This document shows positions 20,285 to 58,558 of a stretch of 64,000 nt of DNA, one piece after another. The stretch comes from Pseudohalioglobus sediminis (GTDB lineage: Bacteria > Pseudomonadota > Gammaproteobacteria > Pseudomonadales > Halieaceae). The position numbers and the translations under genes were made by a program. How positions within the stretch are numbered: the first letter of the stretch is position 1; each line of letters opens with the position of its first letter. Location of the stretch: the NCBI RefSeq assembly GCF_008370495.1, contig NZ_VTUX01000002.1:434001-498000 (forward strand), written 5' to 3'. Under the pieces are notes generated by a model that was not told the origin of the DNA, made no database searches, and saw only the letters and a list, made by a program, of their open reading frames with translations.

Positions 20285-20719
20285 TCAGATTGACTCGATC
20301 GCTATCTGCTGGGTCAAACCTGCTTCCGTGAGTGTGAACAGCGCGTCCTCATATTTCGGCGGGCCAAAGCTGGGCTTGGCATTATTGGACAGCGCCACCG
20401 GTTCCTTGGGGATTCCGATAAAATTGGTATCGAGTTTACCGTTGCCATTCTTGTCGTAAAAAATGGACACCGCATAATCCCCTGGCGCGAGCAACAGTTC
20501 GGCAATCACCAGTTCGCCCTCGCGCGCAGCGTCGATGTCCACGGCAAGTGCGGCTGCCTTGTCATCGCCCAGCCAGGCTTCCTCGTTGTCATAAACCGAG
20601 ATGTGCAACTCACCAGACACGTCATTGAGACCCGAGACCTCCACCCGCAGAACGCTCTGTGCGGCCGCATTGATGCCGACCAACAGCAGCAGCACCGCCA
20701 CCCATCTGTACAATTTCAT
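20285..20719 (-). CDS. DUF2141-family secreted protein
   Basis: A 144-residue protein starting at ATG 20719 with an N-terminal signal peptide ending near NAAAQ. The DUF2141 signature is plain: YDKNGNGKLDTNFIGIPKEP, then NNAKPSFGPPKYEDA. Such proteins are small periplasmic or outer-membrane-associated beta-sandwiches of unknown role. The start overlaps the stop of the preceding gene (ATGA), so it is the last gene of the operon running from the tandem nitrilase. Members of this family also occur beside carotenoid and TonB-receptor genes. Confidence 0.88.
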   Translation of the reverse strand: MKLYRWVAVLLLLVGINAAAQSVLRVEVSGLNDVSGELHISVYDNEEAWLGDDKAAALAVDIDAAREGELVIAELLLAPGDYAVSIFYDKNGNGKLDTNFIGIPKEPVALSNNAKPSFGPPKYEDALFTLTEAGLTQQIAIESI

Positions 20720-21387
20720 ATACTCTCTCCTTCGATCAATGACACTTCCCATAAGCTATCCGGCGCCTGACGCCAGCTGTATCGCTGCAGTAGACCGCGG
20801 TCATCCAGCCAGAAACTGGCATCGACAGTATATGGCCCGCCCACAAATCGCCACAGCTCCCAGGGCGATTCCGTATCCGCTTCCCGCTCACACCAGGCGC
20901 GTCGCTTACTCACCTCAGGCAGCAACAGCGCTTCACGTGTCGTGTGCGCTGCAATGCGCGGCACCAGCACTGAGCCGCGGCCTCCCTGTGCGCACAAGGA
21001 GCGCATCACGGGCCCGGTGAACAGCCGCATGAGGGGGTAGAACAGCGGCGAAGCAGTGCCCGCCTCCCAGGCCTGCGACTGTGGCTCCGCACCAGCACCG
21101 GTACGCTGCAACTCCTGCTTATCAGCGCCAACCCGGTAGTCCAGCGTCACGGGCTCATCACCCTGTCGCTCCCAGAGCAGCCTGCAGTGATGCAACAGTC
21201 CGTCAGTCACACTCGCTTCCAGCCGGCACTGTAGTCCGGGCGCGCTGCGCTTGCAGTGCACATCCAACGCCGCGGGGGCGCCTGCAGGACGGACCGACCA
21301 GGATTCGATCACCCCGGTTTCACCTCCATTGTGCAGGTAGCGATACTGCCCCTGCCCCGGCTCGAGCTGTATCCGAAGCGCGCTCAC
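20716..21387 (-). CDS. Lipocalin-like protein of unknown function
   Basis: About 223 residues if started at GTG 21387 (a TTG at 21459 would add 24). The sequence is mostly predicted beta strands, with LSPL-type aromatic turns, CRLEASVTDGLLHHCRLLWER and a terminal segment FWLDDRGLLQRYSW. In size and strand order it resembles the protein at 57836 (both have a middle segment about a parent structure and a C-terminal D-A-x-F/H-x-F element), so the two may be distant paralogues. It lies between the tandem nitrilase and the DUF2141 gene. No enzyme motif seen. Confidence 0.6.
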   Translation of the reverse strand: MSALRIQLEPGQGQYRYLHNGGETGVIESWSVRPAGAPAALDVHCKRSAPGLQCRLEASVTDGLLHHCRLLWERQGDEPVTLDYRVGADKQELQRTGAGAEPQSQAWEAGTASPLFYPLMRLFTGPVMRSLCAQGGRGSVLVPRIAAHTTREALLLPEVSKRRAWCEREADTESPWELWRFVGGPYTVDASFWLDDRGLLQRYSWRQAPDSLWEVSLIEGESI

Positions 21388-21471
21388 CTGGCCGCCATCA
21401 CCTGCATGCGTTGCGCACTCGCAACCCCAGCAAGAGCGCTGGATTACGTGCCGGGGCAACGCGGAGCAAAC

Positions 21472-23175: not shown

Positions 23176-23181
23176 GCGGAC

Positions 23182-25833
23182 CTAGAAACTGTAGCGGAAG
23201 CGAGCACCGAAAGTACGCGGGTTGGGTAACATCAGGTTAACTGCGAACGGCGTGACCTGTCCGGTCGGCATATAGCCAAAGTTGACATTGCCCAGCCCGG
23301 TGGTTGCCTGGTCCTCGTCGGCCAGGTTGTTGACATAGGCCACCAATGACCAGTTCTCCCCGTTCAGCCCGGCAGTAAAGTCGGCAATCCAGACTGAGCC
23401 AAGGTAACTCATGTTGCCAGAGTCCATGTACTGCTTGGAGCGGTAGTTACCAAACAACTCGGTGAAGTAACCCCAGCCATTGCTGAAGTCGCCCTCGTAG
23501 CGAATGGAGGCAACCGCCACATCCTCCGGCGTATTGATAAAGGCCGCGCCGGTGAAGTCGCCCTCGACATTGCCGGACTGGATCTTGTCGTAGGTACCCG
23601 GCTCGCCGGATTCACTGATATTGAAATCGGTATACTCCGTCTCCACGTGCGTGTAACCAACGAAGAAGATCCAGTTTTCGGAAGGCCGGTAGGTGGCTTC
23701 TATCTCGGCACCATATATCTCGCTCTCGCCGGCATTGGTAATGGATACCTTGGTGATACCCAGCTCGTTGCGCACGAAGTACGGCACCTGCTGGTCGGTG
23801 TAATCGTTGTAGAAAATGGCGCCGTTGAGGCGCAGCCTGTTGCCGAGCAGATCGGTCTTTACACCGATTTCATAGGCCCACAGAACCTCGGGGTCGTAGT
23901 GGCCGGTGGTGATGTCACCGTTGCCATCGGTGGTGGCTATTCCGCCGGGCTTGAAACCCTTACCCACGGACGCGTAGGCAAATACATCGTCGCTGGCCTG
24001 CCAGTCTGCGCTGAAACGGGGCACGAAAGCGGTTTCGTCCACGCTCTCTTTTTGCATCACCGGATCCACCACCTCCAGGTCTGCGTTGAAGTACGGCATG
24101 TTCAACAGACCATTGAGATAGGTGTCCTTGGGCAAACCCTCGTAATCGATATTTTCCTCGAGGTAGCGCCCCTCTGCCGTGAAACGCCAGGACTCACCCA
24201 GGTTGTACACGAGTGACCCCGCCACCGACCAGTGCTGGGTGTCGCGGTTGATGGGGATGCGATTGGGCACCATCTCGGTTTGCACGCCCGTAAACAGTTC
24301 ACAGGTAGTCACGTCGCCGGGAATCGTGCAGGTCGGATCAGCAACACGTGATAGCGCGGAGTTGTAGTAATCGGTGTCCACCTGTGAATTGACCCACCAC
24401 ATCTGGTTCATTACCGAATCCATATCCTCCGCCCAGTACAGCAGGTCCGCCATCCACTCGAAATTACCCGCCACGCCACTAAAGCGGAATTCCTGGGAGA
24501 ACTGGTCATAGTCAAAACTGGTATCCGAATTCGTCTCCACCCCGAACTGCGTGAGCGTCGCCAGGGGCGGGCCGATGTAATTGGGGTCGAAGTTGGCGGA
24601 ACCGGGAAAGAAAGAATCGAGTTCGTAGGCGGTCTTGTCGAAATCTTCGACGATAGAGGTCTCGTTGTGCGTATAGCCGGTCAATGACAGCACGTCGACC
24701 TCACCCATCTGCCACTCCAACTCCAGTGACAGGCGGGTATTCTCGATTTCTGTTCCACGGTAATCCCTGCCCGTATTGGGGTTGGGAGACAGGTTGATAT
24801 CCTCCTCGCCCACATCGCTGATATCGCCTACCAGCATGGTCGCGCAGGCTGGCGGCAGGCCCACGGTATAACGCCACGCAGGCTGTTCTGCGCACTCTTC
24901 CGGCGTCGCCTCCGGCAGGCCCCTGGCACCGCCGGGGATAGGCATTTTTTCAGCATTCTCGCCCACGCTGCCGAGCAGGAAGAAGTCATTCTCCGCGCTG
25001 CCCAGTGGCAGGGCCGAAGCCGCCATCACTACTGGCAGTGGTGTGGATTCGTCCTTGACGTACTCGCCGCGCAAATAGGCGGTGAAGCTGCCCTCACTGA
25101 GAAAGTTGAGGGCAATGCTGCCGCCGTTCTGCGTGTTGCCACCAAGGTCGCCGCCGGTGATCGGGTTTTCATAGTAGCCGTCGAAGTCCGAACTCAGGGC
25201 GGACAGGCTCATGGCCAGTTGTTCGTTGACGGAGAATGACACACTGCCCAGGCCGCGCCAGTAGCCGTGTTCATTCGCCTCGCCCTCAACATAACCGTAC
25301 ACGCCCTCACCAGGCTGCGGCCTTTTGGTCACATAATTTATCGCACCGGCGAAGGCTGAGCGGCCGTAAGTCACGCTTTGCGGCCCCTTGATCACCTCAA
25401 CCCGCTCCAGTTCCAACAGGCCCATATTGGCGTAGGCACCGCCGCCGGCTACGGTCAGCGTCTCGGATGAGATGTCGATACCGTCCACCAGGATTCCCAC
25501 GTTGGGTCTGCCCCTGGTGATATTCACGCCACGAATGCTGGGCCGGGTGTCATTGGGCAGCACACCGGTCTGGAAGGTCAGGCTGGAGGAATACTTGGCC
25601 ACGTCCGCAAGCGAACTTATGGCCTTTTCATCCAGTTGCGCCTGGCCAATCGCGTCAATGGACACCGGCACCGACTGCAGGTTTTCGACTTTTTTGCGCG
25701 CGGTGACCAGTATCTCCTCGAGCTGGAAATCATCGCCGCGCAGGGCTTCGACCTCACGTGCGTGCACAGATACTGAGCCTGAGACAACCGTGGTAACGGC
25801 AACGGCCAGCGCCAACTTGTATTTCACACTCAT
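23182..25833 (-). CDS. TonB-dependent receptor, candidate tetrapyrrole importer
   Basis: An 883-residue receptor with a signal peptide (cleavage near VSVHA), TonB-box/plug segment LEEILVTARKKVENLQSVPV, plug signature VEVIKGPQSVTYGRSAFAG, and C-terminal PRTFGARFRYSF. It sits between a racemase-fold gene and the tandem nitrilase in one operon whose promoter carries a Crp/Fnr-type box. A large hydrophobic substrate such as a chlorophyll derivative or bilin would need such a receptor. The ligand is inferred from context only. Confidence 0.9.
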   Translation of the reverse strand: MSVKYKLALAVAVTTVVSGSVSVHAREVEALRGDDFQLEEILVTARKKVENLQSVPVSIDAIGQAQLDEKAISSLADVAKYSSSLTFQTGVLPNDTRPSIRGVNITRGRPNVGILVDGIDISSETLTVAGGGAYANMGLLELERVEVIKGPQSVTYGRSAFAGAINYVTKRPQPGEGVYGYVEGEANEHGYWRGLGSVSFSVNEQLAMSLSALSSDFDGYYENPITGGDLGGNTQNGGSIALNFLSEGSFTAYLRGEYVKDESTPLPVVMAASALPLGSAENDFFLLGSVGENAEKMPIPGGARGLPEATPEECAEQPAWRYTVGLPPACATMLVGDISDVGEEDINLSPNPNTGRDYRGTEIENTRLSLELEWQMGEVDVLSLTGYTHNETSIVEDFDKTAYELDSFFPGSANFDPNYIGPPLATLTQFGVETNSDTSFDYDQFSQEFRFSGVAGNFEWMADLLYWAEDMDSVMNQMWWVNSQVDTDYYNSALSRVADPTCTIPGDVTTCELFTGVQTEMVPNRIPINRDTQHWSVAGSLVYNLGESWRFTAEGRYLEENIDYEGLPKDTYLNGLLNMPYFNADLEVVDPVMQKESVDETAFVPRFSADWQASDDVFAYASVGKGFKPGGIATTDGNGDITTGHYDPEVLWAYEIGVKTDLLGNRLRLNGAIFYNDYTDQQVPYFVRNELGITKVSITNAGESEIYGAEIEATYRPSENWIFFVGYTHVETEYTDFNISESGEPGTYDKIQSGNVEGDFTGAAFINTPEDVAVASIRYEGDFSNGWGYFTELFGNYRSKQYMDSGNMSYLGSVWIADFTAGLNGENWSLVAYVNNLADEDQATTGLGNVNFGYMPTGQVTPFAVNLMLPNPRTFGARFRYSF

Positions 25834-25904: not shown

Positions 25905-26681
25905 CTAAAATTCTTCCATCAGGCGTCCCCTGCCCGTCACCTTGTCATCAATCCCACAGGCACGCAATGCATGCCAGACAGTCGCCACGTTAATCGGCAA
26001 TAGGGGCTTTTCCAGCACATGCTCAAGTGTAGGGAAAAGGTCCAAAGTCGACAGGTTGGTACCCGCCTGCACGATCGCGTCCACATTATCACCATCGGCC
26101 CGACGCACCGCGGCGAGTACTTCGTCAATACGGGTTTCAGCGATTGCGGTAGCGGACGGCCGATCGAGGCCGACCACCTGCTCCACCTCGTAGCCAAGCT
26201 CTTCGAAATACTGTCGCACATTGGCGTCACCGACAGGGGGATAGGGTGTTATCACCGAGATCCGCCGGGCGCCAAAGCACTCAAGGGCCTGCTTTACCGC
26301 CTCGGCGCCCGTAGTCAGGCCCAGGTCGCCGATGTGCTCGCGGATACCCTCTTCAAAACGAACACTACCCTCGACACCGCCCCAGAACGTCTCGGCAGAC
26401 ATGCCGAGCATAATATGGCTGACTTTTGCCGATATCACATTGCGCAGTGCGATGGGAATCTCACCGCGCATAATCTCCAGGAAACGCTCGAACACGGTGT
26501 TGCTGTCATCACCGCTGGTCTCCACCTCGTCGGCCCAGTTACGCAACTCGATCCAGAAGCGGGACGGGTGCCAGGTAACGCCGTCCAGATGAAACTTCTG
26601 CAGGTCGTACTCGACCCCGGTATTGGTGGAGGGAATAACCACGCCGATCTGCGCTCTGTTCGCTATCTGGTAATTCTGCAT
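25905..26681 (-). CDS. Asp/Glu racemase-fold (maleate isomerase/AMDase-like) protein without the catalytic cysteines
   Basis: A 258-residue protein starting at ATG 26681. It has the two-domain fold of maleate cis-trans isomerase and arylmalonate decarboxylase: IGVVIPSTNTGVEYD, MLGMSAETFWGG, GLTTGAEAVKQAL, ISVITPYPPVGDANVRQYFEELGYEV and QAGTNLSTLDLFP. In those enzymes a Cys sits at each of two mirrored positions; here they read Ser95 (GMSAE) and Thr208 (AGTNLS). A paralogue (29839) has the same replacements. It could isomerise, rearrange or bind alkylmaleate-like diacids by another mechanism. First gene of the operon down to 20285. Confidence 0.75.
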   Translation of the reverse strand: MQNYQIANRAQIGVVIPSTNTGVEYDLQKFHLDGVTWHPSRFWIELRNWADEVETSGDDSNTVFERFLEIMRGEIPIALRNVISAKVSHIMLGMSAETFWGGVEGSVRFEEGIREHIGDLGLTTGAEAVKQALECFGARRISVITPYPPVGDANVRQYFEELGYEVEQVVGLDRPSATAIAETRIDEVLAAVRRADGDNVDAIVQAGTNLSTLDLFPTLEHVLEKPLLPINVATVWHALRACGIDDKVTGRGRLMEEF

Positions 26682-26781
26682 AGTACTCTGTTTATTGCGC
26701 TTCGGCGCCCCGCGGGCAGCCCGCCAGCCATTCATAAACTGGCGAAAACAGGGTCATGCACGCCGCCAGCAACCACGCTTA

Positions 26782-26826: not shown

Positions 26827-27534
26827 TCAGGGCTGCGCAGGCAGGCTGTCCAGCGGTACCTGACCGCGGGTCAGCGCCTCGATATAAGCTGGATTGGCCA
26901 GGTGGCAATAATAGTTACCCAAAAAGCGCCCGGGCATGGGTATCCACCATGCATAAGGCACATACAGCGCCCTGGTGTGGAGATGCAGGCGCCCCGCGCC
27001 GTCTCGCGTAACTGGCTGAAACGGCCAGGGGTCGATCCAGCGAGGCCCGATGAAGGTCAGCTGCTCTTCTTCCACCACCCAGTCAGCAGGTGAGAGCCGC
27101 CGCTGAACCGACGGAACCCCTGCCATGACCTCATCGAGCACGCGCCGGTGTACCGCGTCGCAGCTACTCTCGGTACCGGCGGGTGCGGAACCGCTGCCAT
27201 CTTCGGCGCCATGGATGGCGTTGATGCGCTCAGCTGTGCGCATTTTGCAGGAAATGACGGTAGCCAGCGGCAATTGCGCCGAGACCGGCAGTGCCGCCAT
27301 TTGCGTGACCAAAAACGGGTCGTCTGTGGGTTTCGACTGGATAAACGCCTCGCGGTCGTCGTAGATATCAACCCTGGGCACCAGCGCCGTTTCGGCGATG
27401 ACCGACTGGGCAAACGCGCAGAAGTCGTCCGGGGTAGCCGGCAGCGACCGGGCCGCCGCTAGGACGGGAAAGCAGCCCGCCCACAACAGTGAGCCCAACA
27501 GCGCACCGAGCAGTCGCAGGCCGTCAGTATTCAA
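26827..27534 (-). CDS. Secreted Trp-rich protein of unknown function
   Basis: About 235 residues from a TTG at 27534, placed 5 bases after the Rieske stop with GGGAG upstream; the longer open frame would run through the Rieske gene. A hydrophobic signal segment (LLGALLGSLLWAGCF) is followed by a mature part with five or more Cys and a C-terminal aromatic block (PRWIDPWPFQ, YVPYAWWIPMPGRFLGNYYC). It is co-transcribed with the Rieske oxygenase. I do not recognise a family; an outer-membrane or periplasmic accessory role is possible. Confidence 0.6.
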   Translation of the reverse strand: MNTDGLRLLGALLGSLLWAGCFPVLAAARSLPATPDDFCAFAQSVIAETALVPRVDIYDDREAFIQSKPTDDPFLVTQMAALPVSAQLPLATVISCKMRTAERINAIHGAEDGSGSAPAGTESSCDAVHRRVLDEVMAGVPSVQRRLSPADWVVEEEQLTFIGPRWIDPWPFQPVTRDGAGRLHLHTRALYVPYAWWIPMPGRFLGNYYCHLANPAYIEALTRGQVPLDSLPAQP

Positions 27535-27538
27535 TACG

Positions 27539-28681
27539 CTAGCTCCCGGTGGCACGCACCGGCTGGCGCACCGGGGCGAGCAGTGGCACCGTGTCGATGA
27601 CCCACTGCAGGTCCTGCCGCTCGCGGCGCAGGGGAGAAGGAATGGCCAGTGCTTTCTTGCCGGTAAAACGCGCGGCCTCGTCGGTGTCGATTTTCCAGCC
27701 GAATTCCTCCACACAGCGCCGCCGCGCGGCGCGGAAACTGCTCATGAACTTGTCATCCTTGACCGACATTTCATTGGCGAGATTGTCCGGCAGGTAGTTC
27801 GGCGACGCCGCGTTGACGATCACCGCGTCCTCATTCAGGATGCGGCGAAGCCGCTTGCGCGAACCCTTGTCAAACAGCGAACTCTTGAAGAAGTTGCGGA
27901 ACTGCAGCGCGAACGTGCGCGTGGTGTGTTCGTCCACGGGCGTGTTGGCATCAAACATGATGATCGACATCTTCGGATTGATATCGATCTGGATCCGCAC
28001 CGTCATGCCCGACAGGTCGTAGTAAGGTTTGGTTACCGTCGGCTGGCGTTCCTTGCGCATGCGGCGACGCAGGAAGTTTTCCTTGAACTGCGGCGGATAC
28101 TGCAGGTTCTCGGAGTAGCCCCAGTGCTCGCCCTTTTCAATTTTTACAATATGGTTTTCCTCCGCTGTTTCCGGCATCCCGAAAACCGGGTGTACGAAGG
28201 ATGCGTGGGCGATATCGATGCCGTTCTCAACCACGCGCGCCGCTTCGGCCTGCCAGGTAAACTCGTCGGTAATAAGGCGCCATTCGGGATCATCGAATTC
28301 CGGCAGCGGTGGAATCGGGTAGCGCTCTGATTCCGGCAGGTCACCGAGGAAAACCCAGATCAAACCGTAGCGCTCCTCCACCGGGTAGGCATCGATGCGC
28401 GCGCGATCGGGAATCTTGAAGTCCTTGCCTTCGGAGGGTATGAACTCGACCTTGCCCTGACCGCTGAACTGCCAGCCGTGATAAGGGCAGGCCACGCAGT
28501 CACCCTTGGTCCAGCCACCACTCAATGAACCACCCCGGTGCAGGCAGACGTCACTCAGGCATTGCACAACACCATCAGTGTCGCGAAACAGCACGAAATC
28601 GCGCCCCAGCAACCTTGCCTTAACGGGTTTATCGGTGACCACGTGTGACCATTCAGCCACGTACCACAGGTTGATCAACAC
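27539..28681 (-). CDS. Rieske non-heme iron oxygenase, PaO/VanA type (copy 1)
   Basis: A 380-residue oxygenase alpha subunit. Start is GTG 28681, with GGAGGT 7 bases upstream and an N terminus aligning with copy 2 (LINLWYVAEW). Rieske cluster: C46-x-H48 and C65-x2-H68 (CLHRGG ... CPYHGW). Mononuclear iron site: N153/D156/H159/H164 in ENGIDIAHASFVH. Such enzymes open or hydroxylate aromatic rings; the subgroup includes pheophorbide a oxygenase and vanillate demethylase. No reductase gene is nearby, so it depends on a shared electron donor, like plant PAO. Promoter site B is shared with the divergent hydrolase gene. Confidence 0.88.
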   Translation of the reverse strand: MLINLWYVAEWSHVVTDKPVKARLLGRDFVLFRDTDGVVQCLSDVCLHRGGSLSGGWTKGDCVACPYHGWQFSGQGKVEFIPSEGKDFKIPDRARIDAYPVEERYGLIWVFLGDLPESERYPIPPLPEFDDPEWRLITDEFTWQAEAARVVENGIDIAHASFVHPVFGMPETAEENHIVKIEKGEHWGYSENLQYPPQFKENFLRRRMRKERQPTVTKPYYDLSGMTVRIQIDINPKMSIIMFDANTPVDEHTTRTFALQFRNFFKSSLFDKGSRKRLRRILNEDAVIVNAASPNYLPDNLANEMSVKDDKFMSSFRAARRRCVEEFGWKIDTDEAARFTGKKALAIPSPLRRERQDLQWVIDTVPLLAPVRQPVRATGS

Positions 28682-28747
28682 CGCTATTACCTCCTGTCCT
28701 GTCAGAATAAGTTGGCTCACTTTAGCGCCGATCGATGCGTGGGATTA

Positions 28748-30675: not shown

Positions 30676-30693
30676 GTTTTGTGTCTCCGTCAC

Positions 30694-36814: not shown

Positions 36815-36892
36815 ATTATTTTCCATCCTGCGCGCATCGGCGCCTGTTTACTGTGCTGAGGTGAAGTCTGCAACCGGCGCCGCGGTGAGGCC

Positions 36893-42085: not shown

Positions 42086-42177
42086 AATTATCACCCTGTT
42101 ATTACGATTAGCCGCCTGAGCGCCCGCAAGAAACTGTTATGATCGCCGGGCTCAACTCAACAGCGGAGATGACTGTC

Positions 42178-45483: not shown

Positions 45484-45491
45484 GCCATGCC

Positions 45492-46139: not shown

Positions 46140-46194
46140 ATACTGTCTCCGGACAGGATTGCAAACAGGTTGACGAGCATAAGTGGATCCCGAC

Positions 46195-50759: not shown

Positions 50760-51692
50760 ATGGCGCTGGACAAGGAGCACCTGGAATATCCCCATCGCCG
50801 CTACGGCATGGACCATGATCGCTACGACTGGAGCATGCTCAGCGAGCGCCGGGCTGTCACCTGGCCAGAGGGCAAACGGCTGGCGCTGTGGATCAACGTG
50901 GGATTGCAGTTCTATCCCCTCAACCAGCGCGGCACACCCTTCGCGGTTCCCGGCGGCATGACCATGCCCTACCCCGATCTGCGTCACTATTCGCTGCGCG
51001 ACTATGGCAACCGTGTCGGCATCTATCGCTTTCTCCAGGCCTTTGATCGCTTCGGCGTGAAAGCGACCTTTGCCATGAATACCGAGTTGGCCGAGCGCAC
51101 TCCCCAACTGCTGGCACGCATCTGCGACCGCGGTGACGAAATTCTCTGCCATGGCTGGAACATGGACAGCCTGCACTATGGCGGGCAGGACCCGGCAGAG
51201 GAAGCCAGCCTGATACAACGCTCGCTTGATCGACTGCGGGCGCTTTCCGGCCAAGACATCACGGGCTGGATCAGCCCGGCCCGCAACGAGAGCGCAAAAA
51301 CACCCGACTTACTGGCGCAACACGGCGTGCGCTACTTCTGCGACTGGGTCAATGACGATATGCCCTATCGTTTTCGCACCGAACAGGGCGAACTGGTGGC
51401 CATGCCGCTGTCCAACGAACTGGAAGATCGCTTCGTACTGATGAACAACCTGCACTCCGAGCAGTCGTGGCTGGAGCAGGTCTGTGATGCCGCAGACTTT
51501 CTGCTGGCCGAAGCGCAGTCCGGCGGCGGGCGTATTCTGGGCCTCAATATCCACCCCTGGATGCTAGGACAGCCCCACCGCATCGGCAAACTGGAAGCGG
51601 CGCTGGAGTACATCAGCGCATTGCCCGGCGTCTGGAACGCGTCGGCCAGCGATATTCTGACCTGTTGGCAGCACCAGCAGGCGACACACTAA
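50760..51692 (+). CDS. CE4/PuuE-like hydrolase (copy 2)
   Basis: A 310-residue paralogue of the preceding gene, ATG 50760 three bases after its stop. Same order of elements: YSLRDYGNRVGIYRFLQAFDRFGV, EILCHGWNMDSLHYG, TGWISPARNESAKTPDLL, CDWVNDDMPYRF and NIHPWMLGQPHRIG near the C terminus. Two consecutive copies are common for heteromeric or sequentially acting CE4 imidases/allantoinases. It may form a hetero-complex with copy 1 or act on a differently substituted imide. Confidence 0.78.
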   Translation: MALDKEHLEYPHRRYGMDHDRYDWSMLSERRAVTWPEGKRLALWINVGLQFYPLNQRGTPFAVPGGMTMPYPDLRHYSLRDYGNRVGIYRFLQAFDRFGVKATFAMNTELAERTPQLLARICDRGDEILCHGWNMDSLHYGGQDPAEEASLIQRSLDRLRALSGQDITGWISPARNESAKTPDLLAQHGVRYFCDWVNDDMPYRFRTEQGELVAMPLSNELEDRFVLMNNLHSEQSWLEQVCDAADFLLAEAQSGGGRILGLNIHPWMLGQPHRIGKLEAALEYISALPGVWNASASDILTCWQHQQATH

Positions 51693-51710: not shown

Positions 51711-52496
51711 ATGGAATCCATTTCGGATCTGTTTGGCGAAGCACAGCTGGCGGCCCTCAACCAGGACGCGCCAACCCCCTTATATTTCCGGCTGTACCGC
51801 CTGCTCAAGGACGCCATTCTCAACGGCACCATGGCACACGGTGCGCAGATGCCGACCGAGCAACAGTTGGCAGAAAATTTTGCTGTCTCACGCATCACCG
51901 CCAAACGCGCCATGGACGAACTGGCCGCGGAAGGCCTGGTGGAGCGACGGCGAGGCAAGGGCACTCACGTCATTTACGAATACGAGCCGCAGCCGCTAAA
52001 AGCCCCCCTGGTGGGCATGCTGCAGGAAATCGAGAGCATGGCGCGGCGCTCGGAAGTGAAAGTACTGGAGTGCCAACGCTCGCGCCCTCCAGCCAGCGTC
52101 CGCGATATGCTCGGGCTGGATGAGAAAGACAAGGCCCTGCACCTGCTGCGTGTGCGCTCGCGTGAAGGCCTGCCCTTCGGCTACTACGCCAGTTGGACAA
52201 GCCGCCTGGATAAACCCGTCAGCAAGCGCGATTTCGCCCGCGCGCCACGGCTACAGATCTTTCGCAAGCAGGGTCTGGAACTGTCCCATGTTATTCAGAC
52301 CATCGGCGCGGTAGCGGCCACGCAGGAACTGGCGCAGCACCTCGACACCAGTCCGGGCGCACCGCTACTCAGCCTGGTGCGCCAGTCCTTTATCAGCGAG
52401 GACGACGAGGAAAAGCTGGTCGACTACCTGGAAGTGTTCTACCACCCGGATCGTTTCCAGTACCGCATGGACCTCAATCTGGATGACACCGAGTGA
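51711..52496 (+). CDS. GntR-family (HutC/UTRA) transcriptional repressor
   Basis: A 261-residue regulator. N-terminal winged HTH: YFRLYRLLKDAILNGTMAHG, PTEQQLAENFAVSRITAKRA and GLVERRRGKGTHVI (about residues 22-90). C-terminal UTRA effector domain with LHLLRVRSREGLPFGYYASW. HutC-type proteins are usually repressors released by a pathway intermediate. Fourth gene of the 49153 operon; the three 24-bp operators (49098, 53503, 56916) are its likely sites, which would make the regulon this operon, the CoA-transferase, LeuCD and the VOC/lipocalin genes. Confidence 0.88.
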   Translation: MESISDLFGEAQLAALNQDAPTPLYFRLYRLLKDAILNGTMAHGAQMPTEQQLAENFAVSRITAKRAMDELAAEGLVERRRGKGTHVIYEYEPQPLKAPLVGMLQEIESMARRSEVKVLECQRSRPPASVRDMLGLDEKDKALHLLRVRSREGLPFGYYASWTSRLDKPVSKRDFARAPRLQIFRKQGLELSHVIQTIGAVAATQELAQHLDTSPGAPLLSLVRQSFISEDDEEKLVDYLEVFYHPDRFQYRMDLNLDDTE

Positions 52497-52511: not shown

Positions 52512-53456
52512 TTACTGTGCCGTTGCCGGGCGGAACCCTTTCGGCAGCCCCGCTTCCGGCGTAAAGCCATACAACTCCACTTCCGGTAGTGCCCCGGCCA
52601 GCACCTGCCTCGCTGCGAACAGGCGCGCAAAATTGATGCCGGTGCGCAGACCCATACTCTCAAGCAGGAACACCAGGTCTTCGGTGACGATGTTGCCACT
52701 GGCGCCGGGGGCGAAGGGGCAACCGCCGATGCCACCCATGCTGGCGTCGATGGTGGTCAGCCCGGCATCCAGCGCTGCCATGACATTGGCGAAACCCTGG
52801 CCACGGGTATTGTGCAGGTGCACGCCGGTGAGCTTGTCCCTGCCGAGCAGTCGGTGAATTGCCCGGATGTAGTCACGCACTTGCGTGGGGCTGGCGAAGC
52901 CCGTGGTATCAGACAGGCCCACTTCGTCGCAGCCTGCTGCCACCAGTTTCTCCGCCATCTCCATCACCTTGCGCTCGGGGACCTCTCCCTCCAGGGTGCA
53001 GCCAAAGGCGGTGGACAGCGAACCTTCCAGCTTCGGGCGCTGGCCCGCCGGCAAGGCGTCGATGGCGGCACGAATGTCGCGCACTTCCTGCAGCACCTGT
53101 GCATGCGTGCACCGCAGGTTCTTCAGGCTGTGGGTCTCGCTCACAGAGAGCGGCACGGTCATCTTGTCCGGGCCCACCGCAAGGGCATCCTGTGCACCGC
53201 GCAGGTTGGGCACCAGTACCGCCACCGCCAGCCCGTCGATGGAACTGGCGTGTGCCACCAGCTCGGCAGTGTCCGCCAGTTGCGGCAGCACCCTGGCCGG
53301 CACGAATGAACCCACCTCGATCTCCGGTATGCCCGCCGCCGCCAGTGCGGAAATCCAGTCTTTCTTGGCCGTGGTGGACATAATCGGGCGGATACTCTGC
53401 AGGCCGTCCCGGGGACCCACCTCACTGATTTCTATGTCGATAGCAGGCAATTGCAC
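52512..53456 (-). CDS. HMG-CoA-lyase-like enzyme
   Basis: A 314-residue TIM-barrel enzyme of the HMGL family. Active-site features: ISEVGPRDGLQSIRP (metal and catalytic Arg-Asp), GVHLHNTRGQGFAN (metal His-x-His), and the signature loop MGGIGGCPFAPGASGN with the catalytic Cys. It should split a 3-hydroxy-3-alkyl-acyl-CoA. With LeuCD and a CoA-transferase beside it, an alkyl-citramalyl-CoA (giving pyruvate plus acyl-CoA) is a plausible substrate. The GTG at 53456 is as annotated; TTG 53450 has a better spaced GGGAG. Confidence 0.87.
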   Translation of the reverse strand: MQLPAIDIEISEVGPRDGLQSIRPIMSTTAKKDWISALAAAGIPEIEVGSFVPARVLPQLADTAELVAHASSIDGLAVAVLVPNLRGAQDALAVGPDKMTVPLSVSETHSLKNLRCTHAQVLQEVRDIRAAIDALPAGQRPKLEGSLSTAFGCTLEGEVPERKVMEMAEKLVAAGCDEVGLSDTTGFASPTQVRDYIRAIHRLLGRDKLTGVHLHNTRGQGFANVMAALDAGLTTIDASMGGIGGCPFAPGASGNIVTEDLVFLLESMGLRTGINFARLFAARQVLAGALPEVELYGFTPEAGLPKGFRPATAQ

Positions 53457-53564: not shown

Positions 53565-54749
53565 ATGACAGAGCGCGCCCAGCCCCTCGCGGGCCTCAAG
53601 GTTGTCGAATTTACCCACATGGTAATGGGCCCCACCGCCGGCCTGATCCTCGCCGACCTCGGTGCCGACGTCATCAAGGTGGAACCGCTGAAGGGTGACA
53701 ATACGCGTCGGCTCAAGGGTTCCGGCGGCGGTTACTTCGCCATGTACAACCGCAATAAAAGCAGCCTGTGCCTGGACCTCAAATCCGCTGACGGCCTGGC
53801 AGCGGCGCAGGACATCGTCAGCCGCAGCGATATCGTCATCGAGAATTTTCGTCCCGGGGCCATGGACAAGATCGGGCTTGGCTATGAAGCCCTGTGTGCG
53901 GACAACCCGGGCCTGATCTATTTGTCCCTCAAGGGTTTTCTCTCCGGCCCCTATGCACACCGCACGGCACTGGACGAGGTTGCGCAGATGATGGGCGGGC
54001 TGGCATACATGACCGGGCTGCCCGATCGCCCCATGCGCGCCGGCAGCTCAGTCATCGACATCACCGGCGGCATGTTCGGCGTGATCGCAATTCTGTCCGC
54101 CCTGGAGGAGCGCCATCGCACCGGGAAGGGGCGCCACGTGACCAGTTCCCTGTTCGAAACCACCGCCTTCATGGTTGGGCAACACATCGCCCAGCAAGGT
54201 GTGCTTGGCGAAGAGCCGCCACCGATGACGGTGCGGCGCAGCGCCTGGTCGGTGTATGACATTTTCTACACGAGGGACGGCAGCAGGGTGTTCGTGGGCG
54301 TGGTCAGCGACAGCCTGTGGCAGCGTTTCTGCGAGGAGTTTGGCTTTGACGAATGGGCAGCGGACCGCAGGCTGGATAGCAATAACGAGCGCGTACAGCA
54401 TCGGGATACGCTGATTCCCGGCATCCAGGCTTTGTTCGACACAATGACCCGGGAACAGTTAATGGAACGCCTGGACCGGGCCGGCGTACCTTTCGCCCCG
54501 ATCAACAAACCCATCGACCTGGTGGACGACCCGCACATGAACGCCGGCGCGCTGCTGGAGGTGACGCTCAACAATGGCGACAGCATCAAACTGCCGGCGC
54601 TGCCGGTGGAGTTTGACGGCGCCAGGACCGGACTCTACCGTGACATACCCACACCGGGCGCAGGCGCCCGCGAGCACCTGCGCAAGCTCGGACTGGCCGA
54701 GGAACAGGTACAGCAACTTATCAACAGCGGCGCCATGATCGCCGAGTGA
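53565..54749 (+). CDS. CaiB/BaiF (class III) CoA-transferase
   Basis: A 394-residue class III CoA-transferase. Start LAGLKVVEFTHMVMGPTAGL and LADLGADVIKVEPLKGDNTR are the conserved N-terminal strand and CoA loop; SDIVIENFRPGAMDKIGLGYE follows. The catalytic Asp is probably in RAGSSVIDITGGMFG. It would move CoA (for example from succinyl- or acetyl-CoA) onto a dicarboxylic acid, priming it for the HMG-CoA-lyase-like enzyme encoded divergently. Its 5' region carries GntR operator 2. Confidence 0.88.
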   Translation: MTERAQPLAGLKVVEFTHMVMGPTAGLILADLGADVIKVEPLKGDNTRRLKGSGGGYFAMYNRNKSSLCLDLKSADGLAAAQDIVSRSDIVIENFRPGAMDKIGLGYEALCADNPGLIYLSLKGFLSGPYAHRTALDEVAQMMGGLAYMTGLPDRPMRAGSSVIDITGGMFGVIAILSALEERHRTGKGRHVTSSLFETTAFMVGQHIAQQGVLGEEPPPMTVRRSAWSVYDIFYTRDGSRVFVGVVSDSLWQRFCEEFGFDEWAADRRLDSNNERVQHRDTLIPGIQALFDTMTREQLMERLDRAGVPFAPINKPIDLVDDPHMNAGALLEVTLNNGDSIKLPALPVEFDGARTGLYRDIPTPGAGAREHLRKLGLAEEQVQQLINSGAMIAE

Positions 54750-54762: not shown

Positions 54763-55377
54763 CTAGTAGAGCCAGGGGCGTTGGCGGCGGCGCGCCTCGT
54801 GAAAAGCCTCGATGACCGGCTGGCGCGTCTGCGTCAGGGCGATGGCATCCAACCCTTCCACCAGCATCTGCCTGGCGCCGGCCTCGATGTCGAAAGCGTA
54901 GTGTTGCCCATCAGCTGTCACGCGCTGCGCAGGCAAATCGATCAACACCCGGTTAACCGCAGGATTCTGCTCTACCCAGCGGGCAATGGTCTCGATCTGT
55001 GACGCATCCAGCACCAGTGGCAGCAGACCGTTGCGCACACAGTTATTTGCGAATATGGCGCCAAAACCGGGGGCGATAATGGCGCGGATACCAAATTCCC
55101 TGAGCGCCCACACCGCGTGTTCCCGCGAGGAGCCGCAACCGAAGTTGGGCCCGGAAAGAATAATGCTGGCGCCCCGGTACTCCGGCCGGTTGAGGACGAA
55201 TGCCGGCGCCTCCTCACGTGTGCCTTCTCCGATGTAACGCCAACCGGCGAATAAACCTTCCCCCAGCCCCTGTTTGGAAACGCGTTTCATCTCCCGCGAT
55301 GGAATAATGGCGTCGGTATCCACATTGGCGCGCAACAACGGCGCAGCCACGCCGTGGAGTTGTTCGAACTTTTCCAT
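54763..55377 (-). CDS. LeuD/aconitase small subunit-like protein
   Basis: A 204-residue swivel subunit. RANVDTDAIIPSREMK (N-terminal), GPNFGCGSSREHAVWAL (substrate-binding loop) and GFGAIFANNCVRNGLLP are typical of isopropylmalate isomerase and its relatives. ATG 55377 overlaps the leuC-like stop (TGATG). With the LeuC-like subunit it would add or shift water on an alkylmaleate or alkylmalate, as dimethylmaleate hydratase and citraconate hydratase do. There is no leuB or leuA beside it, arguing against leucine synthesis. Confidence 0.87.
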   Translation of the reverse strand: MEKFEQLHGVAAPLLRANVDTDAIIPSREMKRVSKQGLGEGLFAGWRYIGEGTREEAPAFVLNRPEYRGASIILSGPNFGCGSSREHAVWALREFGIRAIIAPGFGAIFANNCVRNGLLPLVLDASQIETIARWVEQNPAVNRVLIDLPAQRVTADGQHYAFDIEAGARQMLVEGLDAIALTQTRQPVIEAFHEARRRQRPWLY

Positions 55378-56843
55378 CACTGCGACAACATCTCCCGTGG
55401 GTCGGTGATCACGCCGGTTACCGCGGAGGCGGCCACCGTAGCCGGGCTGGCAAGATGGGTACGCGTTTGCGGCCCCTGCCGCGACTCAAAATTGCGGTTG
55501 GTCGTGCTCACCACACGCTGCTGGAACCCGAAGTGTTCACCGCCGGCATAAAAACACATGGAGCAGCCCGATGCTCGCCACTCGAAGCCGGCGGCTCTGA
55601 ACACCTGGTCCAGGCCTTCTCGCTCCGCCTGCGCCCTGACCTGCATGGAACCGGGCACGCAGATGGCGCGCAGACCAGGACGCACACGGCGACCGCGCAA
55701 AACGGCGGCGGCGAGACGCAGGTCGCTGATGCGGGCGTTGGTGCAGGAACCGATAAAGGCGCAGTCAATGGGCGTTCCTGCGATGGCCGCACCCGCCTCC
55801 AGCCCCATGTAGTCGAGGGCCCTGGCGCGACCGGCAGCATCACCTGCGTCCGTGCTGGCGTCGTCCGCGCTTACGGCGTCCGTGCTTACGGCGTCCGTGC
55901 TTACGACGTCCGTGCTTACGGCAGCCGGCACGCGAGCGGTCACATCCACGACATGCTGCGGGCTGGTGCCCCAGGTCACCTGCGGCTGGATATTGCCGCA
56001 GTCCACCTCCAGTTCGGCATCGAACACGGCGTCAGCGTCGCTGTACAGTGTGCGCCAGTAGGCCTCGGCAGCCGTCCAGTGCTCACCCCGGGGGGCGTAG
56101 GGCCTGCCCTGCAGATAAGCCAGCGTAGCCGCGTCGGGAGCGATCAGCCCCGTGAAGGCGGAAAACTCTACCGCCATGTTGCACAGGGTCATACGCGCTT
56201 CCATATCCAGCGCCTGCACAGCCGGCCCCGAGAACTCGACGGCGCAGCCGCTACCACCAGCGGCGCCATGGCGACCGATGAGGTAGAGGATCATATCCTT
56301 GGCGGTGACGCCGGGCTGTAGTTCGCCGGTAAAACGCACGCGCATACTGCGTGGACGCTTCACGCGCAGTGTCTTGGTCACCAGGGCATGCTCTGCTTCA
56401 CTGGAGCCGATACCCCAGGCCAGCGCACCCAGGGCGCCCTGGGTACAGGTGTGACTGTCGGGACACACCAGCGTCAACCCCGGCTGGGCAATACCCTGCT
56501 CCGGTGACACCACGTGCACAATTCCCTGGCGCGGGTCATCGAGGTCGAACAGGTTGAGCCCCGCTGCCTGCGCACCCTCCCGCGTGGCGACGATGAAGTC
56601 GCGGCCGCTGGGCATGGTGGTGTCGTCGCTGCGATCCGGGTAGGTGTCAACGATATGGTCCATGCAGCAGAACACCTGCTGCGGGCAAAACACGCGGCGT
56701 CCCGCAGCGGCGAGGCTGGACAGCGCGATAGAGCCGGTGCGTTCATGCAGGAAGACGCGATCAATATAGATCAGGTCAGTGCCATCCGGTTGCTGCTCCA
56801 CCAGGTGTTCCTGCCAGAGTTTGTCAAACAGGGTAAGTCCCAT
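55377..56843 (-). CDS. LeuC/aconitase large subunit-like protein with repeat insertion
   Basis: A 488-residue large subunit from ATG 56843. DSHTCTQGALGALAWGIGSSE near 125-145, the cluster-ligand Cys in GSCTNARISDL and SGCSMCFYAGGE, and the C-terminal TNRNFESRQG are typical of the LeuC family. The last motif region differs from biosynthetic LeuC (GCSMCLGMNPD). Between about residues 307 and 332 is a low-complexity insertion of STDAV-type repeats encoded by 15-bp tandem units. Probably a dimethylmaleate- or citraconate-type hydratase. Confidence 0.87.
   Translation of the reverse strand: MGLTLFDKLWQEHLVEQQPDGTDLIYIDRVFLHERTGSIALSSLAAAGRRVFCPQQVFCCMDHIVDTYPDRSDDTTMPSGRDFIVATREGAQAAGLNLFDLDDPRQGIVHVVSPEQGIAQPGLTLVCPDSHTCTQGALGALAWGIGSSEAEHALVTKTLRVKRPRSMRVRFTGELQPGVTAKDMILYLIGRHGAAGGSGCAVEFSGPAVQALDMEARMTLCNMAVEFSAFTGLIAPDAATLAYLQGRPYAPRGEHWTAAEAYWRTLYSDADAVFDAELEVDCGNIQPQVTWGTSPQHVVDVTARVPAAVSTDVVSTDAVSTDAVSADDASTDAGDAAGRARALDYMGLEAGAAIAGTPIDCAFIGSCTNARISDLRLAAAVLRGRRVRPGLRAICVPGSMQVRAQAEREGLDQVFRAAGFEWRASGCSMCFYAGGEHFGFQQRVVSTTNRNFESRQGPQTRTHLASPATVAASAVTGVITDPREMLSQ
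55846..55922. repeat. 15-bp tandem repeat in the leuC-like gene
   Basis: About five copies of GCGTCCGTGCTTACG (plus-strand sense; variants GCGTCGTCCGCGCTTA and ACGTCCGTGCTTACG). In the protein they encode a Ser-Thr-Asp-Ala/Val-Val repeat on the surface between domains; in frame, so copy number may vary without breaking the gene. Confidence 0.82.
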
Positions 56844-56959: not shown

Positions 56960-57823
56960 ATGCGCACGCCTCCCCTGCTCGGCCCGGTAGCCCTCTGTAC
57001 CATCGTCGCCAACGAAGGCAAGGCGGCCTGTGCGGCTTATACCCGCTGGATGCACCAGAGTGTGGTGGAACAGGGGGTACTGGATCACGACACAGCCGCG
57101 GCCCTTGGCCTCCGCACACTGGCTGGCAATCCCTGTTGGCTGCTGGCCAACGCCACAGGGCGCGCCTGGCTGCTGATTGTGGAAGCGCCGGAAGCACCGG
57201 AGCGCGACCCCCTGCACAGCTTCGGCTGGATGGCCATGGAGGTACTGGTCGCCGACGTGGACGACCTCGCCGCCAGCCTGTCCGGATCGCCCTTTACCCT
57301 GCTGCGAGCGCCGGCGGACCTCGACGTATCTGACAGCATTCGCGCCTGCCAGGTGCGCGGACCGGCCGGCGAGGTCCTCTACCTGACCCGGATCAGCGGC
57401 GAAGTCGCCCCCTTTGACCTGCCCCGCTGCGAAGCCGCGGTCGATCACCTGTTTATACCAGTACTGTCGACGCCATCGCGGGACTGCAGCCTCGCGGACT
57501 ACGCCGCCATCAGCGGCAACGAGGGGCTGCGCTTTGACACGCGCATCACCGTGGTCAACCAGGCCAGAAGCTTTGAGCTGAATCGACGCCATGCCGTCGC
57601 CACATTGCAGTTGGCTGGCCAGGCGCTGATCGAGATCGATCAGATCGCCGGCACCAGGGACGCCGGTGCCGGCCCTCATACCGGTGTCGCCAATATCGCG
57701 TTTTTCTGCCAGCTGGCAGCGGATGCAGCAGCCCATTCACACACCAGCGGCCCCTTCGCCGGCTATCGCACCAGCGCCCGCGCCGGCAGCGGCGGCGAAG
57801 ACTTTACCCTGGTCCACCGTTAG
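56960..57823 (+). CDS. Tandem VOC-superfamily (glyoxalase/bleomycin-resistance-like) protein
   Basis: A 287-residue protein (ATG 56960; the frame is open upstream but runs through operator 3). Two VOC modules: PVALCTIVANEGKAACAAYTRW to about residue 145 with HSFGWMAMEVLVADVDDLAAS and GPAGEVLYLTRI; then DHLFIPVLSTPSRDCSLADYA to the end with a similar strand order. VOC proteins include glyoxalases, extradiol dioxygenases and isomerases. The metal ligands are not all obvious, so an isomerase, ring-cleaving or binding role is left open. Followed 12 bases later by the lipocalin-like gene. Confidence 0.68.
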   Translation: MRTPPLLGPVALCTIVANEGKAACAAYTRWMHQSVVEQGVLDHDTAAALGLRTLAGNPCWLLANATGRAWLLIVEAPEAPERDPLHSFGWMAMEVLVADVDDLAASLSGSPFTLLRAPADLDVSDSIRACQVRGPAGEVLYLTRISGEVAPFDLPRCEAAVDHLFIPVLSTPSRDCSLADYAAISGNEGLRFDTRITVVNQARSFELNRRHAVATLQLAGQALIEIDQIAGTRDAGAGPHTGVANIAFFCQLAADAAAHSHTSGPFAGYRTSARAGSGGEDFTLVHR

Positions 57824-57835
57824 GAACGCATAATC

Positions 57836-58558
57836 ATGGCCTACCGAACCCTGCGCGGCACCATCTGCTACACCAGCAAACAGCCACAGCGCATGGACGT
57901 GGAGCGCGGGCGTGAGTACTTCACCCTGACCCGACAGCCGGATGGTACCGACCTGCTGCACGCCCATTGCGAAATCGACGACGAACCGATGGTCGTGCGC
58001 GATGTCGTCCAGGCGATGGAGCATGCCACCTCGAAACCACTGGACTGCCATGTGCGCCTCACTGTGGGAAACCGCTTCGAGGGCAGCGGCTGGTTCCGCT
58101 TTACCGATCACCACGCCGAGTGTGAAACCTGGAATCGCAAGGACGGCCGCATCAGCCAGCGCATCGAGCTGGCATCGCCGGTAGAGTGGATGCAATGCCA
58201 TCCCATCGTTGGCGACGCCCTGTTGATGAAAGCCTACGATCGCAGCCAGGGCCCGGGGAAACGCCGTCTGGATCACGTGATGCTCTCATCTCCGGACCAT
58301 CGCGGTGCTACCGGCCCCATGCTGTTTGCGCTGGGTTTCAGCATCCAGTACGTGGGCGAAGAACGCGTCAGCGTGGGCGCCGGCAAATTCGATGCCTACC
58401 ATTTCCAGGTCACCGACACGGCCGGAGAACTCCCGGAGGAACATCCGCCGTACAACGTCTGGTGCACCGCGGACGAGGATTACATCCTGCTCAAGGCCTG
58501 CGCCGAGGGTTACATGATGACGCATTACGAATTGATGGAGCTGGAAATCACCGGGTAG
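57836..58558 (+). CDS. Lipocalin-like protein of unknown function
   Basis: A 240-residue beta-rich protein. YRTLRGTICYTSKQPQRMDVERG opens it; then HVRLTVGNRFEGSGWFRF, HPIVGDALLMKAYDRSQG, VGEERVSVGAGKFDAYHFQV and YNVWCTADEDYILLKACAEG. The order of strands and the GKFDAYHFQV element resemble DUF3108-type and calycin proteins and the protein at 20716. Last gene of the GntR-regulated plus-strand pair. No catalytic residues recognised. Confidence 0.62.
   Translation: MAYRTLRGTICYTSKQPQRMDVERGREYFTLTRQPDGTDLLHAHCEIDDEPMVVRDVVQAMEHATSKPLDCHVRLTVGNRFEGSGWFRFTDHHAECETWNRKDGRISQRIELASPVEWMQCHPIVGDALLMKAYDRSQGPGKRRLDHVMLSSPDHRGATGPMLFALGFSIQYVGEERVSVGAGKFDAYHFQVTDTAGELPEEHPPYNVWCTADEDYILLKACAEGYMMTHYELMELEITG

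Follow-up and report, generated by a model that had tools for sequence, protein, structure and literature searches.

A conserved gene block around RCCR/bilin-reductase-fold proteins in Halieaceae, possibly devoted to the catabolism of chlorophyll-type tetrapyrroles

Introduction

The breakdown of chlorophyll-type pigments has so far been described in part and chiefly in plants, where the PaO/phyllobilin pathway operates in senescent leaves. A 38-kb block of genes that partly resembles it was analysed in Pseudohalioglobus sediminis (Halieaceae), at positions 20285-58558 of a 64,000-nucleotide stretch (contig NZ_VTUX01000002.1, positions 434,001 to 498,000), which is referred to as the window. 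The open reading frames (ORFs) of the block were profiled with Pfam and NCBIfam; genes are designated by their first position in the window, with the strand given as + or -. It is a conserved, co-inherited catabolic supercluster around two proteins of the RCCR/bilin-reductase fold, 42891 and 36059. With a probability of about 0.55, its genes serve to take up an open-chain tetrapyrrole and dismantle it; the substrate would most likely be a formyl-oxobilin of chlorophyll type or the parent macrocycle.

Like the plant pathway, the block combines Rieske-type oxygenases with an RCCR-family protein and has a short-chain dehydrogenase/reductase (SDR) and hydrolases nearby. Furthermore, the formyl-oxobilin of the plant route could serve the aldehyde dehydrogenase of the block (PMC4950323). 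Unlike in plants, the Rieske proteins of the block fail the PaO model, RCCRs of the A type carry Ala at the column of plant Glu154, and no Staygreen match was found, the control genomes being silent as well. The plant pathway is described as ending at phyllobilins, whereas the block adds a TonB receptor, a major facilitator superfamily (MFS) carrier and a carbon-assimilating lower half.

The cyanobacterial RCCR homologs of Nostoc and Anabaena (PMC2716323) belong to the same family and are 40-47% identical to 42891. In cyanobacteria, RCCR is accompanied by one CN_hydrolase and one aldehyde dehydrogenase (six of nine loci), as against the 38-kb block here; the available part of PMC2716323 makes no mention of this cassette. 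The pre-1 and pre-3 clusters of pre-PcyA proteins in heterotrophs typically include heme oxygenase, an Fe-S protein, V4R proteins and globins (PMC10151467). None of these was found among the profiled genes of the block. The nicotinate and dimethylmaleate pathways follow the same imidase-amidase-hydratase-lyase logic, and PDB relatives of 46183 include 2,3-dimethylmalate lyase. In contrast to those pathways, the block has several enzymes scoring below equivalog cut-offs, linkage to RCCR and Rieske genes and extra racemase-fold proteins without the maleate isomerase Cys residues. No description of a bacterial cluster like this block was found in the literature searched, in which subscription journals were thinly covered.

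Conservation of the block and distribution of RCCR genes

Two genome samples were used, 140 genomes of the family and 398 across the phylum. The Pfam family RCC_reductase (PF06405) was found in 10 of the former and in one of the latter, the window's own genome. Orthologs of 36059 (at least 56% identity, near full length) are present in the ten PF06405-positive family genomes and in none of the 130 others, one of which (G010) has a partial 35% match. A PrpB-like ortholog (at least 59%) occurs in 8 of the ten RCCR+ genomes versus 1 of the 130, and a PuuE-like ortholog (at least 63%) in 9 versus 5; the three thresholds were chosen after gaps in the match lists had been seen. Five genomes of the window's own genus are devoid of RCCR, of 36059 and of close PrpB-like or PuuE-like orthologs. 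The ten RCCR+ genomes span six genera and are related, and the counts do not represent independent events.

Most of the block recurs in the nine other RCCR+ family genomes at about 50-88% identity and with long runs of kept gene order, which bears out conservation across Halieaceae. Most of it was found in HTCC2148 (G028), G027, Parahaliea maris (G134), G047, Halioglobus japonicus BC5_1 (G128) and G126, and pieces of it in G033, G119 and G040; in G047, G126, G128 and G134, parts of the block are inverted, lie elsewhere or fall outside the stretch compared. A second, paralogous RCCR (B type, about 33% identity) was found in 8 of 9 Halieaceae relatives (e.g., L098, L103, L100), with an SDR 40-43% identical nearby in seven and an MFS gene 32-34% identical in four. 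The window genome has the A and C types only.

Scanning of contigs with a 17-row profile gave 72 RCCR loci in Gammaproteobacteria, Nostocales and Actinobacteria; the scan needs one of two peptide patterns and is therefore incomplete. By hand, 69 of them were grouped from a quick tree, L129, L130 and L131 being omitted as fragments. The loci extend at most 10 kb per side, and absences there prove little. An ORF was counted under the window protein that it matched best, provided that E<1e-12 and coverage above half were reached; unrelated SDRs and MFS proteins may inflate those two counts. Among the 22 A-type loci (L070 and L082, two halves of one RCCR gene from one metagenome bin, count as two), homologs were found of 43762 in 21, the hydrolase in 18, the Rieske oxygenase in 16, and the SDR, 42139 and the MFS gene in 14 each. 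The 21 B-type loci have the SDR in 16, the MFS gene in 12, racemase-fold genes in 10, the PrpB-like gene in 8 and LeuC in 6. Lower-pathway genes surround RCCR, in differing orders, at loci of Thalassomonas, Rheinheimera, Thalassotalea, Paraglaciecola, Microbulbifer, Alkalimonas and Nevskiaceae. The group with the Chromatiales RCCR loci (n=8) has few block genes in the stretch examined, with an SDR in five.

RCCR homologs are also present in Nocardioides, Mumia and other actinobacteria (L094, L109, L115, L116, L120, L125-L128). The fragments L129 and L130 lie in contigs titled as metagenome-assembled genomes of Bifidobacterium breve and are possibly mis-binned from another actinobacterium.

The RCCR/bilin-reductase proteins

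42891..43712, +, RCC reductase-family protein, group A
36059..36826, -, distant RCCR/bilin-reductase homolog, group C

The protein 42891 scored 57.3 bits with PF06405 (gathering cut-off 24.9), and the profile of its group matched plant RCCR (3agb) in the PDB at E 2e-19. The structure predicted for 36059 had a pLDDT (predicted local distance difference test) of 94.5 and was compared with known structures by Foldseek and VIA; at E<=0.001, Foldseek returned RCCR and ferredoxin-dependent bilin reductases only, and the closest structures include PebB, HY2 and PcyA. Group C, to which 36059 belongs, matched the RCCR group in hhalign with probability 96 and E 2e-9. Direct comparison of 36059 with the Pfam models RCC_reductase and Fe_bilin_red gave 10.7 bits and nothing over the cut-offs. 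Among eight group-C members, four and three reached E<=1 with the two models (best 0.0036 and 0.019, respectively), and a profile of six group-C sequences alone matched only two unrelated PDB chains (E 0.048 and 0.87). The placement of 36059 in the superfamily follows from the agreement of the profile-profile match, the mixed alignment and the structure. Thus, 42891 and 36059 share the RCCR/bilin-reductase fold, as the sequence-only reading had proposed; the outcome that it had named as contrary, best matches of the two proteins outside this superfamily, clearly failed to appear.

Active-site columns were read from one alignment of 86 rows, in which the plant row is off by one residue at the second catalytic Asp. 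Glu154 is a catalytic residue of plant RCCR. Its column is occupied by Asp in 8/8 group-C rows, including 36059, and by Ala in 21/21 gammaproteobacterial A-type rows, including 42891, and in 5/5 A-prime rows. The B-type rows have Val or Ile (33/33), the actinobacterial rows Val (9/9) and the nine cyanobacterial rows Ala (7) or Glu (2). The second catalytic Asp of bilin reductases, found in the motifs ERDP of PebA and EKDP of HY2, has its aligned counterparts in Asp238 of 42891, which is invariant in 17 rows, and in Asp227 of 36059. The central Asp is essential in bilin reductases, and of the second one, Asp-205 of PebA is not essential while Asp-219 of GtPEBB is (PMC6755814). Judging by these residues, group C looks most like a working bilin reductase, and groups A and B may perform different chemistry. 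The residues of PcyA are likewise missing from the pre-1 PcyA proteins, of which the one tested apparently yields small amounts of product (PMC10151467). The place of the plant row in a quick RCCR tree was discarded (end branch 4.6), and this row was left out of the careful tree.

Proposed pathway

We infer the pathway from the observed gene families, the fold, conservation, co-occurrence and a second LeuCD. The genes considered are as follows, in the order of the proposed steps.

23182..25833, -, TonB-dependent outer-membrane receptor; PF00593 132 bits, PF07715 65 bits
39501..40814, +, MFS transporter; PF07690 151 bits
28838..29821, +, alpha/beta hydrolase, PETase/chlorophyllase-like, below cut-offs; PF12740 21.3 bits (cut-off 28), PF07224 16.2 (cut-off 26); homolog in 18/22 A-type loci
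32513..33520, -, alpha/beta hydrolase; PF00561 68 bits from residue 89; closest models in NCBIfam of PcaD type, under cut-off; overlap with 33331, true start probably later
41297..42094, -, SDR adjoining RCCR, NYC1/NOL-like by motif only; PF00106 148.7 bits; homologs in 14/22 A-type and 16/21 B-type loci, a count that may include unrelated SDRs
27539..28720, -, Rieske oxygenase, VanA type; PF00355 72 bits, PF19112 69 bits; homolog in 16/22 A-type loci
47210..48376, -, second Rieske oxygenase, VanA type; PF00355 78 bits, PF19112 76 bits
43762..44730, +, tandem lipocalin-like (calycin) protein; fold like DUF3598 and BFA1
33331..34767, -, aldehyde dehydrogenase; PF00171 464 bits
21472..23175, -, CN_hydrolase (nitrilase-superfamily amidase); PF00795 132 bits; two domains by eye, the second degenerate
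36938..38698, -, second CN_hydrolase amidase; PF00795 140.7 bits
30694..31959, -, FAD-dependent aromatic monooxygenase family; PF01494 194 bits
34779..36050, -, acyl-CoA dehydrogenase-fold flavoprotein; PF02771 48 bits
49701..50756, +, PuuE-like cyclic imide hydrolase candidate; PF01522 31 bits; TIGR03212 102 bits, below the equivalog cut-off 424.6
50760..51692, +, second PuuE-like cyclic imide hydrolase candidate; PF01522 50 bits; PuuE allantoinase structure E 3e-22
31905..32510, -, isochorismatase-family amidohydrolase, candidate maleamate amidase; PF00857 138 bits; D-K-C triad by eye
54763..55380, -, LeuD-type hydratase small subunit, second genome copy; PF00694 114 bits; passes the leuD model TIGR00171
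55377..56897, -, LeuC-type hydratase large subunit, second genome copy; PF00330 514 bits; other LeuC elsewhere in the genome, 52%
46183..47103, +, PrpB/dimethylmalate-lyase-type C-C lyase; PF13714 144 bits; KRCGH motif; PDB relatives PrpB, petal death protein, 2,3-dimethylmalate lyase
53565..54749, +, class III CoA-transferase, nearest succinate-glutarate CoA-transferase; PF02515 374 bits; NF052585 234 bits, below cut-off 750
52512..53456, -, HMG-CoA-lyase-family C-C lyase; PF00682 154 bits; PRK05692 subfamily model 279.5 bits, cut-off 246

The pigment would be imported through the TonB receptor and the MFS carrier. Its esters would be trimmed by the hydrolases 28838 and 32513, a carbonyl adjusted by the SDR 41297, and the macrocycle opened, or the bilin oxidised, by the Rieske oxygenases. 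The bilin would then be bound and its bridges reduced by 42891 and 36059, with the calycin protein 43762 as a possible carrier. The formyl end left by PaO-type opening could be oxidised by the aldehyde dehydrogenase and the lactams opened by the CN_hydrolases, after which the FAD monooxygenase and the flavoprotein would cut the bridges to give 3-methyl-4-R-maleimides. The PuuE-like imidases 49701 and 50760 would open the maleimide, and removal of ammonia by the isochorismatase or an amidase would produce 2-methyl-3-R-maleate. Hydration by LeuCD to 2-methyl-3-R-malate and retro-aldol cleavage by the PrpB-like lyase would yield pyruvate and R-CH2-COOH. Alternatively, the CoA-transferase and the HMG-CoA-lyase-type enzyme would give pyruvate and R-CH2-CO-SCoA.

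Worked out from structure, the products would be butyrate from a methyl-ethyl ring and glutarate from hematinic acid (methyl and propionate). A beta-methyl group is present on every pyrrole ring of chlorophyll a and of heme; pyruvate would therefore be a common product. Two rings of chlorophyll, the reduced ring D and ring C with the fifth ring attached, would need extra steps for which the scheme has no place. Oxidative chlorophyll breakdown gives hematinic acid and is linked with maleimides; in leaf samples, hematinic acid was detected and maleimides were not (PMC7318184). We give somewhat less than an even chance to the fuller proposal that this is a co-inherited pathway by which marine heterotrophs mineralise chlorophyll-derived tetrapyrroles, the pyrroles leaving as 3-methyl-4-R-maleimides and ending as pyruvate and an acid.

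The lower half, namely the two PuuE-like imidase candidates, the isochorismatase hydrolase, the second LeuCD, the PrpB-like lyase and the HMG-CoA-lyase/CoA-transferase pair, would fit the conversion of pyrrole-derived maleimides to pyruvate and an acid. The sequence-only reading had suggested a tetrapyrrole catabolic supercluster, and conservation, co-occurrence and the suitability of this lower half lend it support. Eight genes were absent from its comments (46183+, 49701+, 50760+, 51711+, 52512-, 53565+, 54763-, 55377-). The KRCGH of 46183 aligns with KKCGH in its PDB relatives 4iqd and 1zlp, a type of active-site motif of the methylisocitrate/dimethylmalate lyase superfamily; by its sequence, 46183 qualifies as a member, and it was the sole full-length PrpB-like match found in the genome. 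The other LeuCD copy of this genome, at C11:29834, is 52% (LeuC) and 45% (LeuD) identical to that of the block, in which loops are altered (KQFL to SREM in LeuD). For 49701 and 50760, imide hydrolysis rather than allantoinase membership is proposed. Among the PuuE-family proteins are a cyclic imide hydrolase from Pseudomonas putida and HxnM from Aspergillus (PMC9304392).

The genome G047 has no PrpB-like ortholog, yet homologs of LeuCD, the CoA-transferase and the HMG-CoA lyase are kept. This is as expected if the two cleavages, PrpB-like and at the CoA level, are alternatives.

PuuE-like genes about 50% identical are common in g21, a genus-level group of the family without RCCR. Thus, this module is wider than the block and has another or a wider purpose.

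Upper-pathway candidates and evidence against the proposed pathway

The six ORFs named by the sequence-only reading were all located where it had placed them, and Pfam matches confirmed the families of the TonB receptor, the FAD monooxygenase, the amidases (CN_hydrolase) and the racemase-fold proteins. Of the lipocalin-like proteins, 43762 has a calycin-like fold, while 20716 has no Pfam match and resembles lipocalins by eye only. The best PDB match of 41297 is an SDR (E 2e-25), and no NYC1/NOL reference is among the best 60 of its 114 matches; it may be NYC1/NOL-like by a motif. In 27539 and 47210, expected to be PaO/VanA-type oxygenases, the Rieske and VanA_C domains stood and PaO was absent by profile. 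To speak of a bacterial PAO pathway would go too far, given this absence, a chlorophyllase score below the cut-off and the merely putative NYC1/NOL kinship of 41297.

The points that weigh against the proposed pathway can be considered together. The PaO C-terminal domain (PF08417) gave no match in 27539 or 47210 at E<=0.1, only Rieske, VanA_C and KshA_C being found (with Rieske_2 in 47210). In a PDB search made for 47210 only, the best solved relative is the methylxanthine demethylase NdmA (E 2e-27), so that the grouping with demethylases of small aromatics, named beforehand as adverse, is seen in part (VanA_C in both proteins, NdmA closest to 47210). In 28838, proposed as chlorophyllase-like, PF07224 falls short of its cut-off. 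The Mg-dechelatase Staygreen (PF12638) was found in 0/7 RCCR+ genomes and likewise in 0/14 controls, and a motif scan of the window for ferredoxin-like genes gave only unconvincing frames and no credible block gene. With Ala at the Glu154 column, shared by all the gammaproteobacterial A-type rows, 42891 is filed in the sequence family and not as an RCC (red chlorophyll catabolite) reductase enzyme; it may not reduce RCC in the manner of the plant protein. The racemase-fold proteins 25905 and 29839, both devoid of the maleate isomerase Cys residues, have no step assigned to them in the proposed pathway.

The same holds for parts of the lower half and for the distribution. The imidase candidates 49701 and 50760 score 102 and 105 bits with the allantoinase equivalog TIGR03212 (cut-off 424.6), 46183 scores 264.7 bits with TIGR02317 (cut-off 354.4), and the CoA-transferase falls short of its nearest model. 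The block LeuD passes TIGR00171 with 204 bits (cut-off 116), and it may have isopropylmalate activity. PuuE-like orthologs are present without RCCR, and G047 is missing PrpB. Three of the nine cyanobacterial loci have no cassette match in the stretch examined, and the actinobacterial loci contain almost none of the block, with weak CoA-transferase matches in 4/9.

Alternative explanations

It is unlikely that the block acts on some other compound, such as an N-heterocycle, a natural product with pyrrole rings or an aromatic acid, with RCCR-fold proteins recruited to bind or convert a non-tetrapyrrole. The Rieske proteins do resemble methylxanthine and vanillate demethylases, and the A-type RCCRs are devoid of the plant catalytic Glu. 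The combination of an imidase (PMC9304392) with an isochorismatase and an FAD monooxygenase is also reminiscent of nicotinate pathways. However, the strongly matching solved structures are RCCR, bilin reductases and coproporphyrinogen oxidase, all of which act on tetrapyrroles. Two divergent RCCR-superfamily proteins (three types in most relatives), the TonB receptor and the calycin protein also indicate a large pigment.

A heme-type bilin (biliverdin, bilirubin, an algal phycobilin) or heme itself, the RCCR-family proteins being bilin reductases that start its use for C and N with no chlorophyll involved, is likewise unlikely as the substrate. The Asp of 36059 at the plant Glu column recalls the central Asp of bilin reductases (PMC6755814), PebB, HY2 and PcyA are among the closest structures to this protein, and the proposed lower half would suit heme pyrroles equally. 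The linkage at the Nostocales loci argues the other way. In 6/9 cyanobacterial loci (L080, 10001-13459; L079, L085, L087, L088, L114), RCCR is followed by a CN_hydrolase and then an aldehyde dehydrogenase, both 82-93% identical to the L080 copies, and at L080 a VanA-type Rieske gene lies about 4 kb upstream. Such independent linkage suggests that the substrate contains an aldehyde together with an amide or lactam. The bilins formed by heme oxygenase are not known to carry a formyl group, yet aldehyde dehydrogenases accompany RCCR both in gammaproteobacteria and in Nostocales. RCC, like the type-I phyllobilins, is a 1-formyl-19-oxobilin, PaO-type opening leaving the formyl group (PMC4950323). 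Heme oxygenase PF01126, the only family of such enzymes searched, was found in 0/7 RCCR+ genomes versus 3/14 controls. A chlorophyll-type substrate is favoured over heme because the RCCR-linked aldehyde dehydrogenases suit a formyl-bilin and PF01126 is missing from the seven genomes; the formyl-bilin argument would be the main case for it.

Mere detoxification of phototoxic algal chlorophyll derivatives, with no use for growth and with the lower genes being an unrelated neighbouring dicarboxylic acid pathway, is very improbable. In its favour, the set conserved in the Nostocales is RCCR, amidase and aldehyde dehydrogenase only, the lower set is partly elsewhere or missing in G047 and Parahaliea maris (G134), and the PuuE pair is found without RCCR. 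Against it, several families have PrpB-like, LeuCD, HMG-CoA-lyase and racemase-fold genes close to RCCR, in differing orders, and the PrpB-like ortholog tracks RCCR (8/10 versus 1/130 genomes).

Other genes of the block

18743..20239, +, aldehyde dehydrogenase, possible member at the block edge; PF00171 381 bits; kept beside the block in several relatives, 60-67%
20285..20752, -, DUF2141 protein; PF09912 103 bits; conserved 47-61%
20716..21459, -, unknown, lipocalin-like by eye only; no Pfam match; homologs near RCCR in several loci, 23-37%
25905..26735, -, arylmalonate decarboxylase/maleate isomerase-fold protein; PF17645 58.7 bits; motifs SAETFW, GTNL; neither maleate isomerase Cys
26827..27714, -, conserved unknown; no Pfam match; 30-54% identity over about 65-71% in 4 relatives; true start probably later (ORF overlaps the Rieske gene)
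29839..30693, -, second arylmalonate decarboxylase/maleate isomerase-fold protein; PF17645 53.4 bits; best PDB match 2xed maleate isomerase, E 9e-12; neither Cys
38778..39440, +, small membrane protein (by eye), unknown family; no Pfam match; conserved 55-68%
42139..42792, +, conserved protein of unknown family; no Pfam match; 54-84% identity in 15 relatives
44812..45483, +, Crp/FNR-family regulator; PF13545 65 bits, PF00027 53 bits
45492..46139, -, glutathione S-transferase-like protein; PF13417 49 bits
48485..48946, +, DUF2846-like protein, below cut-off; PF11008 23.3 bits versus 34.3; 38-53% in 5 relatives
51711..52496, +, GntR/UTRA regulator; PF07702 72 bits, PF00392 71 bits
57836..58558, +, DUF3108-like protein, below cut-off; PF11306 20.2 bits versus 26; near RCCR in 3 Microbulbifer loci, 68%

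Maleate isomerase uses two catalytic Cys residues. The proteins 25905 and 29839 were rejected as maleate isomerases, the first Cys column being occupied by Met and the second by Ala or Val. In 20 relatives of the two (16 loci), the first column has Met or Tyr throughout, and Cys is kept in the second in only five, all of them relatives of 25905. This racemase-fold subfamily has an invariant SAETFW where maleate isomerase has its first Cys, and it often adjoins the PrpB-like lyase.

The protein 42139 adjoins RCCR and has many invariant polar residues without belonging to a Pfam family. Its apparent fusion with another protein in L073/L076 (507 residues) was rejected, as the N-terminal part overlaps the MFS gene by position and the fusion has no Pfam match. 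ORF 44454-46202+ was rejected as a gene; the Crp/FNR and glutathione S-transferase genes overlap there in other frames.

Significance

Chlorophyll is made and degraded in an amount of 10^12 kg a year (PMC7318184), and no bacterial genes taking its macrocycle to central metabolites were found in the literature searched. The block supplies candidate genes, together with the intermediates (formyl-bilins, maleimides, 2-methyl-3-alkylmaleates) and products (pyruvate, glutarate, butyrate) that would be expected. The genes 36059 and 43762 are possible markers for pigment turnover in algal blooms. The locus also offers a bacterial setting for the plant enzyme RCCR. If the proposed role is true, the RCCRs of plants and cyanobacteria would belong, as branches, to a broader bacterial family of pigment catabolism.

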